A stretch of 64,000 bases of DNA, taken from NCBI RefSeq assembly GCF_000425305.1, contig NZ_AUDE01000017.1:62001-126000 (forward strand), in the 5' to 3' direction. Of the stretch, positions 14,413 through 17,522 are shown in pieces. The stretch comes from Psychroserpens burtonensis DSM 12212. Lineage in GTDB: Bacteria > Bacteroidota > Bacteroidia > Flavobacteriales > Flavobacteriaceae. A program made the position numbers and the translations under genes. Position 1 is the stretch's first letter; each line of letters opens with the position of its first letter. The notes under the pieces were generated by a model. That model ran no database searches. It was not told the DNA's origin and saw only the letters and a program-made list of their open reading frames with translations.

Positions 14413-16311
14413 ATGAGCGATGCTTTAAAACATGAATGCGGAATTGCACTCATAAGACTCAAAAAACCATTAGAATTCTACAAAGAAAAATATGGAAGTG
14501 CATTTTACGGAGTAAACAAAATGTACCTCTTAATGGAAAAGCAACATAATCGTGGACAGGATGGTGCAGGTTTTGCAAGTATTAAATTAGACACAAAACC
14601 AGGAGATCGTTATATTAGTCGTGTACGCTCAATCGCTCAACAACCTATTCAAGATATTTTTGCTCAAATCAATGAGCGTATTAATGAGGAGCTCACAGAG
14701 CATCCAGAATATCAAGACGATGTTGCGCTACAAAAACAACACATTCCCTATATTGGTGAACTTTTTTTAGGTCATGTTCGCTATGGCACCTTCGGTAAAA
14801 ACAGTGTAGAAAGTGTTCATCCATTTTTAAGACAAAATAATTGGATGCACAGAAACCTCATCGTTGCAGGTAACTTTAATATGACTAATGTTAATCACTT
14901 ATTTGATGGTTTAGTAAAGTTGGGTCAGCATCCAAAAGAAAAGGCAGACACCGTTACTATTATGGAGAAGATTGGTCATTTCTTGGATGATGCAGTGTCT
15001 AAAATTTATAAAAAATTAAAGAAAGAAGGTTATAACAAAAATGAATGTTCTCCACTAATTGCAGAGCGTTTGAATGTTGCTAAGATTTTAAGAAAAGCTG
15101 CTAAAAATTGGGATGGTGGTTATGCTATGGCTGGCTTATTAGGTCACGGTGATTCGTTTGTTTTACGTGATCCATCTGGTATACGTCCAGCTTACTATTA
15201 TGAAGATGATGAAGTTGTTGTGGTTGCCTCAGAGCGCCCAGTAATACAGACTGTTTTTAACGTTGATTTTGAAGATGTCAAAGAGTTAGCTCCAGGTCAC
15301 GCTATAATTACAAAAAAATCTGGTGAGGTTTCTATAGAACAAATATTGGAGCCCCTAGAGCGTAAAGCATGTTCTTTTGAGCGCATTTATTTTTCCCGTG
15401 GAAGTGATGCTGAAATCTATCAGGAGCGAAAAACATTAGGGAAATTGTTAATGCCTAAAGTTTTGGAAGCCATTGATGGTGATACAAAAAACTCTGTGTT
15501 TTCATATATTCCGAATACTGCGGAAACGTCTTTCTTTGGAATGATTGAAACCGTAGAACAACATCTGAATGAGCGCAAAACGAGAGCTATTTTGAATGGT
15601 GGCGGAAAACTTTCCGCAGAAAAAGTTACAGAGATCCTATCTGAAAGACCTCGAATTGAAAAAATTGCTATTAAAGATGTTAAACTTAGAACCTTTATTA
15701 CAGAAGATAGTAGTCGTGATGATTTAGTAGCTCATGTATATGATGTGACCTACGGCGTCATTAAACCAACAGATAATCTTGTCATTATTGATGATAGTAT
15801 TGTGAGAGGTACAACACTCAAAATGAGTATTATCAAGATGATGGATCGCTTAAATCCAAAACAAATTGTGGTCGTATCCTCTGCTCCTCAAATTCGTTAT
15901 CCAGATTGTTATGGTATTGATATGGCAAATCTAGAGAGTTTAATTGCGTTTAGAGCAATGTTGGCGTTATTAAAAGAGACTAATAACTATTATTTAATTG
16001 AAGAAGTATATCATAAATGTAAAGCACAATTAGCCCTAAAAGATAAAGAAGTAAAAAATTATGTGAAGGACTTATATCGTCAATTTACAACAGAAGAAAT
16101 ATCAAGTAAGATTTCTGAGTTAATTTCAGATCCATCAATAAAAGCAAAAGTAAAAACTATTTTTCAACCTATTGAAAATTTACATAAGGCGTGTCCAAAA
16201 AATCTAGGGGACTGGTATTTTACCGGCAATTACCCTACTGCTGGTGGTAACCGCGTGGTTAATAGAGCTTTTATTAATTTTTATGAAGGAAATAAAGAGA
16301 GAGCTTACTAG
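14413..16311 (+). CDS. purF: Amidophosphoribosyltransferase, long Bacteroidota form
   Basis: 632 residues. The N-terminus MSDALKHECGIALIRL places nucleophilic Cys9 after a short propeptide, as in class II glutamine amidotransferases. Glutaminase features follow: QHNRGQDGAGFAS, LGHVRYGTFG and AGNFNMTN. The PRPP-binding loop is NLVIIDDSIVRGTTLKMSI (about 458-476). Classic PurF is about 470-510 residues. The extra length comes from a linker near 75-100, a segment after the glutaminase domain, and about 100 C-terminal residues. Bacteroidota often hold such a long paralogue besides a classical PurF, so this may be the second copy; the reaction is still expected to be PRPP plus Gln to phosphoribosylamine. 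Confidence 0.85.
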   Translation: MSDALKHECGIALIRLKKPLEFYKEKYGSAFYGVNKMYLLMEKQHNRGQDGAGFASIKLDTKPGDRYISRVRSIAQQPIQDIFAQINERINEELTEHPEYQDDVALQKQHIPYIGELFLGHVRYGTFGKNSVESVHPFLRQNNWMHRNLIVAGNFNMTNVNHLFDGLVKLGQHPKEKADTVTIMEKIGHFLDDAVSKIYKKLKKEGYNKNECSPLIAERLNVAKILRKAAKNWDGGYAMAGLLGHGDSFVLRDPSGIRPAYYYEDDEVVVVASERPVIQTVFNVDFEDVKELAPGHAIITKKSGEVSIEQILEPLERKACSFERIYFSRGSDAEIYQERKTLGKLLMPKVLEAIDGDTKNSVFSYIPNTAETSFFGMIETVEQHLNERKTRAILNGGGKLSAEKVTEILSERPRIEKIAIKDVKLRTFITEDSSRDDLVAHVYDVTYGVIKPTDNLVIIDDSIVRGTTLKMSIIKMMDRLNPKQIVVVSSAPQIRYPDCYGIDMANLESLIAFRAMLALLKETNNYYLIEEVYHKCKAQLALKDKEVKNYVKDLYRQFTTEEISSKISELISDPSIKAKVKTIFQPIENLHKACPKNLGDWYFTGNYPTAGGNRVVNRAFINFYEGNKERAY

Positions 16312-16412
16312 ATAAAAAACATAAAATTGTCACTTTATCTAAGATATTATCATTTTTATCGGATAAAAGTGCATTTAGTCTAATATTTAGTAACGAATCT
16401 CTAAATAACACA

Positions 16413-16420
16413 TACATTGG
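16413..16420 (+). promoter_or_regulatory. -7-like box of small-RNA copy 1 (TACATTGG)
   Basis: Seven of eight bases match TAnnTTTG. The box starts exactly 12 bases before the conserved element of copy 1, the same offset as the perfect box of copy 2. Confidence 0.4.
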
Positions 16421-16424
16421 TCTC

Positions 16425-16497
16425 ACCATAACATAAGTAGGTTAAGTTCATGGTAGATTTGGGGCAAAAAAAGGTGAACATCTGTTCACCTTTTTTT
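16425..16497 (+). ncRNA. Candidate small RNA, copy 1
   Basis: A 73-base module. ACCAT...ATGGT ends can close a first hairpin (16425-16454). A conserved TAGATTTGGGGC segment follows. Then comes a textbook terminator: seven A, GGTGAAC, loop ATCT, GTTCACC, seven T (16466-16497). It has no open reading frame. Copy 2 at 16749 matches it over the whole length. The differences lie in one base of the first hairpin, the A/T-run lengths and the terminator loop, so structure is kept while the loop changes. The -7-like box upstream supports plus-strand transcription. I do not recognise a known RNA family. Confidence 0.5.
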
Positions 16498-16570
16498 ATG
16501 GATATATACGAACAACTCACGAGTTGTCCCTCCACTTTTTCTGCAAAATATTTTTAGATTATTCTACTTA

Positions 16571-16616
16571 ACAGATAACTCACAAATAGTCATACAGATA
16601 ACTCACAAATAGTCAT
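16571..16616. repeat. Perfect tandem 23-base direct repeat
   Basis: The unit starts ACAGATAACTCACAAATAGT and occurs twice without spacer (16571-16593 and 16594-16616). It lies between the two small-RNA-like copies. Two units only; function unknown. Confidence 0.85.
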
Positions 16617-16736
16617 AACGGTATCGATATGTATTCTTTTAACGCATATTACCCCAAAGAAAACGCTCATTTTCTCGTTTAAGCCAATTTATTCGTCGTT
16701 GGTCTAAAAAATTAAACTATTAATTAAAAGTCCACT

Positions 16737-16744
16737 TATATTTG
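16737..16744 (+). promoter_or_regulatory. -7 promoter box of small-RNA copy 2 (TATATTTG)
   Basis: Exact TAnnTTTG match starting 12 bases before the conserved element. Transcription would start about at 16750, the first bases of the module. No clear -33 TTG at the expected distance. Confidence 0.5.
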
Positions 16745-16748
16745 TTAA

Positions 16749-16819
16749 ACCATAACATAAGTAGGTTAAGTTTATGGTAGATTTGGGGCAAAAAAGGTGA
16801 ACTCTCGTTCACCTTTTTT
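16749..16819 (+). ncRNA. Candidate small RNA, copy 2
   Basis: A 71-base module nearly identical to copy 1. The first hairpin is better here: ACCATAA pairs with TTATGGT. TAGATTTGGGGC is unchanged. The terminator is six A, GGTGAAC, loop TCTC, GTTCACC, six T. The GGTGAAC/GTTCACC stem is identical in both copies while the tetraloop differs, which fits selection on structure. A perfect -7 box lies directly upstream. It sits about 95 bases before the convergent sodA 3' end. Confidence 0.5.
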
Positions 16820-16913: not shown

Positions 16914-17522
16914 CTATTTAGCTTCTGCGTAACGTCTTTCAATTTCATTCCAATTGATTACTTTAAAGAACGCATCAATATAATCTGGTCTTCTATTTTG
17001 ATAGTTTAAGTAGTAAGCGTGCTCCCAAACATCTAATCCTAAAATTGGTGTTCCTCCGCATGTTACTCCTGGCATTAATGGGTTATCTTGATTTGGTGTT
17101 GAACACACATCAACTTTTCCTCCTTTATGAACACATAACCAAGCCCATCCAGATCCAAATTGTGTTGCTGCAGCTTTACTAAAAGCCTCCATAAAAGCTT
17201 CTTTAGACCCAAAAGCAGCATCAATTGCATATTTTAAATCGCCAGAAAGATAGCCTCTATCTTCTGGATTCATGACGTCCCAGAATAAAGAATGGTTATA
17301 AAAACCACCTCCATTATTTCTAACTGCTTTATTGTCCATATCAAGATTATCTAAGATATTCTCAATACTCTTCCCTTCATGAGCCGTCCCTTTGATAGCG
17401 TCATTTAGTTTATTTGTATAACCTTGGTGATGTTTGGTATGATGTATTTCCATTGTACGAGCATCGATATTTGGTTCTAATGCGTCGTATGCATATTTTA
17501 ATTTCGGTAATTCGAAAGCCAT
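16914..17522 (-). CDS. sodA: Superoxide dismutase, Mn-type of the Fe/Mn family
   Basis: 202 residues, cytosolic, with no signal peptide. It dismutates superoxide to oxygen and hydrogen peroxide. Metal ligands are His27 (HHTKHH block), His77 ([10 protein letters not shown]), Asp164 and His168 (DVWEHAYY). The NNGGGFYNH block has Gly where iron enzymes carry the active-site Gln. PNQDNPLM supplies a Gln (Q145) at the manganese-type position, so manganese or cambialistic use is favoured. Single-gene unit with its own terminator. Confidence 0.95.

Follow-up and report, generated by a model that had tools for sequence, protein, structure and literature searches.

In Listeria monocytogenes, the near-identical multicopy small RNAs (sRNAs) LhrC1-5 are placed under a two-component response regulator, bind surface-protein mRNA and impede its translation by means of redundant pairing sites (PMC4132741). 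The CiaR-dependent csRNAs of streptococci are several similar sRNAs located behind the direct-repeat operator of a response regulator, and their similar regions are complementary to ribosome-binding sites and AUG codons (PMC8186281). Among the Bacteroidota, FopS is a multicopy sRNA with an intrinsic terminator at its end, described as a Bacteroidaceae family (PMC11697453), and Rfp18 of Flavobacterium psychrophilum, an sRNA conserved among flavobacteria, has been predicted to target secreted proteases and an adhesin (PMC9723704).

The flavobacterial RNA described here resembles each of these systems in part. Like LhrC, it is multicopy, and control by a response regulator and pairing with start regions are predicted for it; unlike LhrC, which presents CU-rich sites, it has a G-rich linker and loop, a fixed family-wide address and targets that apparently carry the operator of the sRNA itself. 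Kinship in sequence is claimed neither with LhrC nor with the csRNAs, which belong to another phylum and whose operator repeat is TTTAAG-N5-TTTAAG (PMC8186281). FopS consists of a single-stranded 5′ stretch followed by the terminator (PMC11697453), whereas a 5′ hairpin, with weak covariation, is predicted here; a short stretch of the 5′ domain, UUCAUGGU...AGAUUU...GG, can be aligned between the two, although FopS (Rfam RF04319), the closest Rfam family from the Bacteroidota, scores about 23 bits (22.7-23.1), below its gathering score of 56. Rfp18, compared by description only, is said to pair through a third stem-loop (PMC9723704), whereas our RNA folds into two hairpins. Within the literature searched (main texts, partial coverage), no title or abstract start describes this RNA.

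Organization of the locus

The window, that is the whole stretch of DNA analysed, comprises 64,000 nt of Psychroserpens burtonensis DSM 12212 (NZ_AUDE01000017.1, positions 62,001 to 126,000, forward strand). A sequence-only reading had noticed in it two direct copies of an element of about 72 nt, each with a possible 5′ hairpin, a constant linker, a terminator and a −7 box exactly 12 bases ahead, and had interpreted them as a family of trans-acting sRNAs in tandem duplication that it could match to no known RNA. The features of the locus are the following:

14413-16311, + strand: open reading frame (ORF) upstream of the copies, which we take to be purF from its family
16350-16389, + strand: operator of copy 1, two direct repeats with a period of 20 bp (multi-copy consensus; operator-pattern match G000:C12:78350)
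16413-16420, + strand: −7 box of copy 1, TACATTGG (sequence; aligned across relatives)
16425-16497, + strand: sRNA copy 1 (pair alignment, folding, covariance-model match of 100.9 bits)
16435-16446, + strand: loop of the 5′ hairpin of copy 1, AAGTAGGTTAAG
16455-16465, + strand: linker of copy 1, AGATTTGGGGC
16466-16497, + strand: terminator of copy 1, stem GGTGAAC/GTTCACC (16473-16479/16484-16490), loop ATCT
16674-16713, + strand: operator of copy 2, two direct repeats with a period of 20 bp (sequence and consensus; missed by the stricter operator pattern)
16737-16744, + strand: −7 box of copy 2, TATATTTG (sequence; aligned across relatives)
16749-16819, + strand: sRNA copy 2 (pair alignment, folding, covariance-model match of 101.3 bits)
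16779-16789, + strand: linker of copy 2, AGATTTGGGGC
16790-16819, + strand: terminator of copy 2, stem GGTGAAC/GTTCACC (16796-16802/16807-16813), loop TCTC
16914-17522, − strand: convergent ORF, presumably sod (superoxide dismutase-like)

Sequence and pair alignment place both copies, their hairpins, linkers and terminators, including the identical stems with different loops, and both −7 boxes exactly where the sequence-only reading had put them. The direct repeats of 20-bp period upstream are absent from that reading. ACCAT opens the copies at 16425 and 16749 and ATGGT follows at 16450-16454 and 16774-16778; the 5′ hairpin appears in the predicted fold of both copies, and none of 200 shuffles folded as well as either of them (z of −3.8 for copy 1 and −4.5 for copy 2). 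In a scan of the window with the covariance model everything besides the two copies remained at 33 bits or less. The core is present in the 3.98-Mb genome at these two places alone, with up to three mismatches allowed, and 79 of the 100 family genomes sampled carry close copies; the copies are therefore not a product of chance. Each copy, with its own −7 box and intrinsic terminator read from the sequence, is almost certainly an independent gene for an sRNA of about 72 nt.

No Rfam family reaches its gathering threshold anywhere in the window, in agreement with the sequence-only reading. Inspection of the sub-threshold alignments led us to reject STnc40, MicX, STnc320 and mir-1252, which score mainly on the terminator hairpin and in some cases on the opposite strand.

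Distribution and genomic address

The element was found in 79 of the 100 sampled family genomes with E values of 2.8e-9 or better; one genome (G015) is borderline (E 3.2e-4), and the other 20 gave 0.0176 or worse, or no match. With a second model, built on 45 distinct copies, 26 of the 30 family members in a sample of the order (membership counted from the listing) reached at least 63.7 bits, and outside the family there were weak matches in 31 of 166 genomes, the best of 41.1 bits. Four of six family members matched in a sample of the class, where the others were weak (35 of 192 genomes, at most 35.5 bits). The best candidate for a relative beyond the family (locus L059) lacks the core and was discarded. 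Carriers among the loci listed include Flavobacterium, Winogradskyella, Aquimarina, Formosa, Lacinutrix, Algibacter, Tamlana, Salinimicrobium, Christiangramia, Aequorivita and Ulvibacter.

An ORF of the purF type lies directly upstream on the same strand in all 56 short loci (L003-L058, one place counted twice), and a convergent sod in 48 of them within the stretch examined. Among the 80 named loci listed, purF is directly upstream in 69 and convergent sod present in 64. The 11 listed loci without purF comprise five pieces that extend for less than 200 bases ahead of the copy (L261, L276, L296, L306, L323), one with about 0.5 kb of upstream sequence covered (L293), and five where more than 1 kb is clear and the copies do stand away from purF (L258, L264, L291, L295, L297), L295 still adjoining sod. 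Each locus holds one to six tandem copies. Some genomes (G014, G024 and G518, among the matches listed) have copies at two places.

The constant position between purF and convergent sod, together with the terminator that closes each copy, is what would be expected if the copies were mere purF terminators or spacers before sod, or a mobile repeat, with no regulatory RNA involved. We regard this as highly improbable: a −7 box and an operator precede each copy, the 5′ domain is far more conserved than the terminator, the five loci just named lie away from purF, the plasmid and phage sequences searched contain no match to the element, and the RNA matches unlinked leaders in a sequence-specific manner, as described below.

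Conservation of the RNA

The 379 copies seen, many of them counted repeatedly, share 51 distinct 5′ domains, and the commonest three account for 206. The 5′ domain is near-frozen, with a loop and linker that hardly vary. The terminator stem varies with compensation: both partners differ in 10 of its 12 pairs, in an alignment fitted to the structure. The outer stem of the 5′ hairpin is mostly invariant and lends little covariation support: one alignment (A5) holds a row from the opposite strand, and both-side changes affect six of eight pairs with that row and two of eight without it, the terminator count being 10 of 12 either way. The possible 5′ hairpin of the sequence-only reading is upheld by the fold of both copies and only weakly by covariation. 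Its wider proposal of a tandemly duplicated sRNA family is borne out by the matches across the family, and the support to be sought in relatives by covariance search was largely obtained, in 26 of 30 family genomes and with compensating terminator pairs. What would have told against it, namely restriction to one strain, terminator stems broken in relatives, or identity with a transposon end or a known RNA, was not encountered in the genomes, plasmid and phage sequences and Rfam families searched. The observation of that reading is correct and was undersold. A 5′ domain held in place by its partners fits this pattern of conservation, and the constancy of loop and linker amid a drifting terminator likely reflects pairing with mRNA start regions.

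Promoter, operator and candidate regulator

The flavobacterial −7 box is located at −12 to −5 (PMC9723704), and both −7 boxes of the locus occupy these positions. When copies are aligned on the box, two blocks of the motif KTTYRTCYAAWWWW emerge, whose T and C peaks are separated by 20 bases. Around −33 the sequence is rich in T, with TTTGG in several Flavobacterium copies and no clear TTG in others. Outside Flavobacterium, first copies mostly have a TAnnTTRG box and later copies TAnnTTTG, from which we infer that promoter strength may differ between copies. The window follows many relatives in this, the box of copy 1 (16413-16420) being of the TAnnTTRG type and that of copy 2 (16737-16744) of the TAnnTTTG type.

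LytTR regulators bind repeats of 9 bp spaced by 11-13 bp (PMC6193735). The sRNA operator agrees with this arrangement, having two direct repeats upstream of the core promoter with a period of 20 bp, within the 20-22 bp so defined. By Pfam, the operator also leads a LytTR response-regulator gene in one genome (G061, locus L409:761-1453, minus strand). That the regulator is a response regulator of the LytTR type is a prediction that we favour slightly over its negation. The L409 gene is a candidate for a self-controlled regulator of the circuit; its leader is no outlier in pairing, 53 of 200 shuffled sRNAs equalling the real one.

The same direct repeats precede several of the predicted targets. 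A first pattern for the operator, too strict, had given four matches against 10 in the control. Used blind in the own genome, the pattern finally adopted gave five matches against one for the reversed control, namely sRNA copy 1, the gene of a 42-aa protein considered below, and three genes with partial complements of the sRNA in their leaders; ten more genomes gave 67 matches against one. Pairing was then evaluated in the 68 non-sRNA operator leaders of the 11 genomes, in which orthologous leaders are non-independent: 30 out-pair every local control (for L393 the control mean is meaningless, as pieces are masked), in 22 none of 200 shuffled sRNAs pairs as well as the real one, and 37 pass the shuffled-sRNA test at the 5% level, or 28 of 57 when the 42-aa gene is excluded. 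The 31 leaders that fail include most of those of a 56-aa protein. In the own genome the three further leaders are modest by energy (5, 11 and 11 of 200 shuffled sRNAs equal the real one), L376 and L379 being marginal passes with 11 of 200 each. Pairing leaders are far more frequent among the operator matches than expected, and we hold it very likely that the operator is common to the sRNA and many of its targets, so that one regulator appears to switch on both the messages and the sRNA.

Ten operator-led genes compared with Pfam gave MAM, leucine-rich-repeat, esterase, carboxypeptidase and sorting-signal domains, besides the LytTR regulator, and no family for four of the ten. Two further kinds of element stand behind the operator. 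One is a conserved protein of 55-57 aa with one hydrophobic stretch (L377:1579-1746 in the own genome, L404, L418, L438, L440); the L377 protein has no Pfam match. Its leader in L377 passes the pairing test (5 of 200), and in the others shuffled sRNAs pair as well in 190 (L418), 174 (L440), 35 (L438) and 17 (L404) of 200 cases. The other is RNA B, a second conserved noncoding RNA of about 140 nt with its own terminator, found in seven of the ten further genomes searched with the operator:

L382:1561-1700, RNA B
L385:1286-1475, RNA B
L394:1338-1475, RNA B
L401:1286-1475, RNA B
L407:1561-1700, RNA B
L416:762-899, RNA B
L444:693-830, RNA B

RNA B carries CCCYAAAUCURC, antisense to the linker of the sRNA, and is a sponge candidate. 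It has no Rfam match at threshold in the six loci tested, and none lies within the window.

Predicted mRNA targets

The loop AAGUAGGUUAAG and the linker AGAUUUGGGGC are antisense to leaders and initial codons of mRNAs from other loci, and the pairing often falls in two blocks that straddle the start codon, CCCCAAAU...AUG...ACCUACU. A search with CCCCAAAT...ACCTACT, the complement of linker plus loop, over 149 family genomes returned among the matches listed, besides the sRNA loci, starts of genes whose AUG falls in the gap, and also a conserved site coding for the 42-aa protein; the 20 regions first opened were chosen from those matches in favour of an ATG in the gap. A less biased count comes from a looser two-block pattern in six genomes. 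The raw excess of this pattern is small, 26 non-sRNA sites against 21 in the reversed control; of the 18 examined among these 26, eight are placed at a start codon. The excess of two-block sites resides in their position at start codons.

CCCCAAATCGATGAAAAACCTACTTA is the start of a 139-aa ORF in the own genome, lipoprotein-like as read from its signal sequence. Six targets of this genome out-pair all 51 gene starts of the window, a comparison in which the start of L379 was set three bases late. Other targets are lipoproteins and secreted proteins. The targets of Flavobacterium may differ, since 17 genomes gave only a couple of two-block candidates among the matches listed: one site outside the arrays whose gap contains an ATG (G217) and a second, target-like site (G278). 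Complementarity beyond chance to unlinked mRNA start regions supports the trans-acting character suggested by the sequence-only reading, and on this computation the sRNA very probably pairs in trans with other mRNAs.

Two candidate links were rejected. A PrrF-like connection to the neighbouring sod gene was dropped, its start ranking fourth of the 51 window starts at −19.3 kcal/mol and being no outlier. The recurrent match CCCCAAATRTGACGTAAGTT...GTGACCTACT was set aside as chance: at L159, L171 and L172, the three loci inspected, it falls on the strand opposite to coding sequence, probably that of metalloprotease genes.

The message of a 42-aa protein

The best target, and the most conserved one found, is the mRNA of an unannotated 42-aa protein, whose loci had first been taken for sponges. 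The pairing sites lie both ahead of and within the ORF. In each of 30 loci the predicted duplex (−35 to −54 kcal/mol) is stronger than those of all 200 shuffles and of every local piece. The pairing search had supplied six of the members; the remaining loci were collected with a protein profile, and the coding site overlaps the first residues of that profile. The 5′ UTR alone tops all local pieces in 27 of the 30 (failing in L220, L222 and L224), and in 28 the start of the coding region (45 bases) pairs better than synonymous versions of it at the 5% level, codon weights in this test reflecting base composition only. By eye, a leader may contain up to four anti-sRNA stretches, so that the message may serve as both target and decoy. 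In L181 (genome G005) a frameshift within a T run disrupts the ORF, with the leader sites kept.

With a cut-off of E 1e-4, the profile detects the ORF in 54 of the 149 genomes. A median dN/dS of 0.33 and an excess of third-position changes (291 usable pairs, 30 ORFs, last 27 codons) indicate that it is coding; the three members tested match no Pfam or NCBIfam family, and the structure model consists of one helix, residues 13-41 (mean pLDDT 77.6). At the same cut-off the ORF is present in 37 of 79 sRNA-carrying genomes and in none of 20 non-carriers (Fisher p 4e-5, relatedness uncorrected, and G015, which has the ORF, excluded).

A small helical protein that co-occurs in this way with an RNA making very long antisense matches at several sites of its message could be the toxin of a type I toxin-antitoxin system, the array providing the antitoxin RNA in trans. 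This reading is quite improbable, given that the sRNA is kept without a detected ORF in 42 of 79 carriers, that other messages pair as well, and that the two genes are unlinked and have an operator in common. Slightly less probable still is that a protein or the ribosome binds the leader motif and the sRNA, without pairing, is a decoy or mimic of the complementary strand. Many of the transcripts behind the operator do carry CCCCAAAT at their 5′ end; yet the match is antisense, covers 18-19 unbroken bases in the leaders of L213 and L223, and exploits synonymous codon choice. Pairing of the sRNA with the messages is the reading retained.

Model for the circuit

Pairing and the shared operator rest on computation; to them we add, by inference, repression, opening of the hairpin and the identity of the regulator. 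In the model, a LytTR-type regulator would turn on surface and small-protein messages together with the multicopy sRNA, in a feed-forward loop. The 5′ hairpin would open for pairing, and loop and linker would clamp the start codon, covering it and lowering translation. Having several copies would increase the dose or differentiate it. The best explanation of the data, and in our judgement a probable one, is a multicopy sRNA, controlled by a response regulator, that blocks translation of the messages co-regulated with it.

Neither the pairing nor the shared operator fixes the sign of the regulation, and co-activation would suit a positive partner too, so the sRNA might pair with the leaders and raise output instead, e.g. 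by stabilising the message or freeing the start site. We think this unlikely, as most duplexes cover or flank the start codon. A duplex over the start codon usually blocks initiation. The csRNA review concludes likewise (PMC8186281). Repression, i.e. a lowering of target translation by pairing, is accordingly the outcome that we expect with fair confidence. A more extended version, in which one operator drives a closed RNA circuit of sRNA array, partner messages, 42-aa target or decoy and RNA B sponge throughout the family, is put forward tentatively, and we would not yet bet on it.

Concluding remarks

The analysis yields a family-wide flavobacterial sRNA at a fixed address. With it come a testable rule for pairing, CCCCAAAU...AUG...ACCUACU, a set of candidate messages, a common operator and a family of small proteins outside Pfam and NCBIfam. 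It offers a reason for the presence of 41 near-unchanged bases of noncoding RNA beside a drifting terminator, and makes post-transcriptional control of the secreted and surface proteins of flavobacteria directly testable in harmless laboratory strains.
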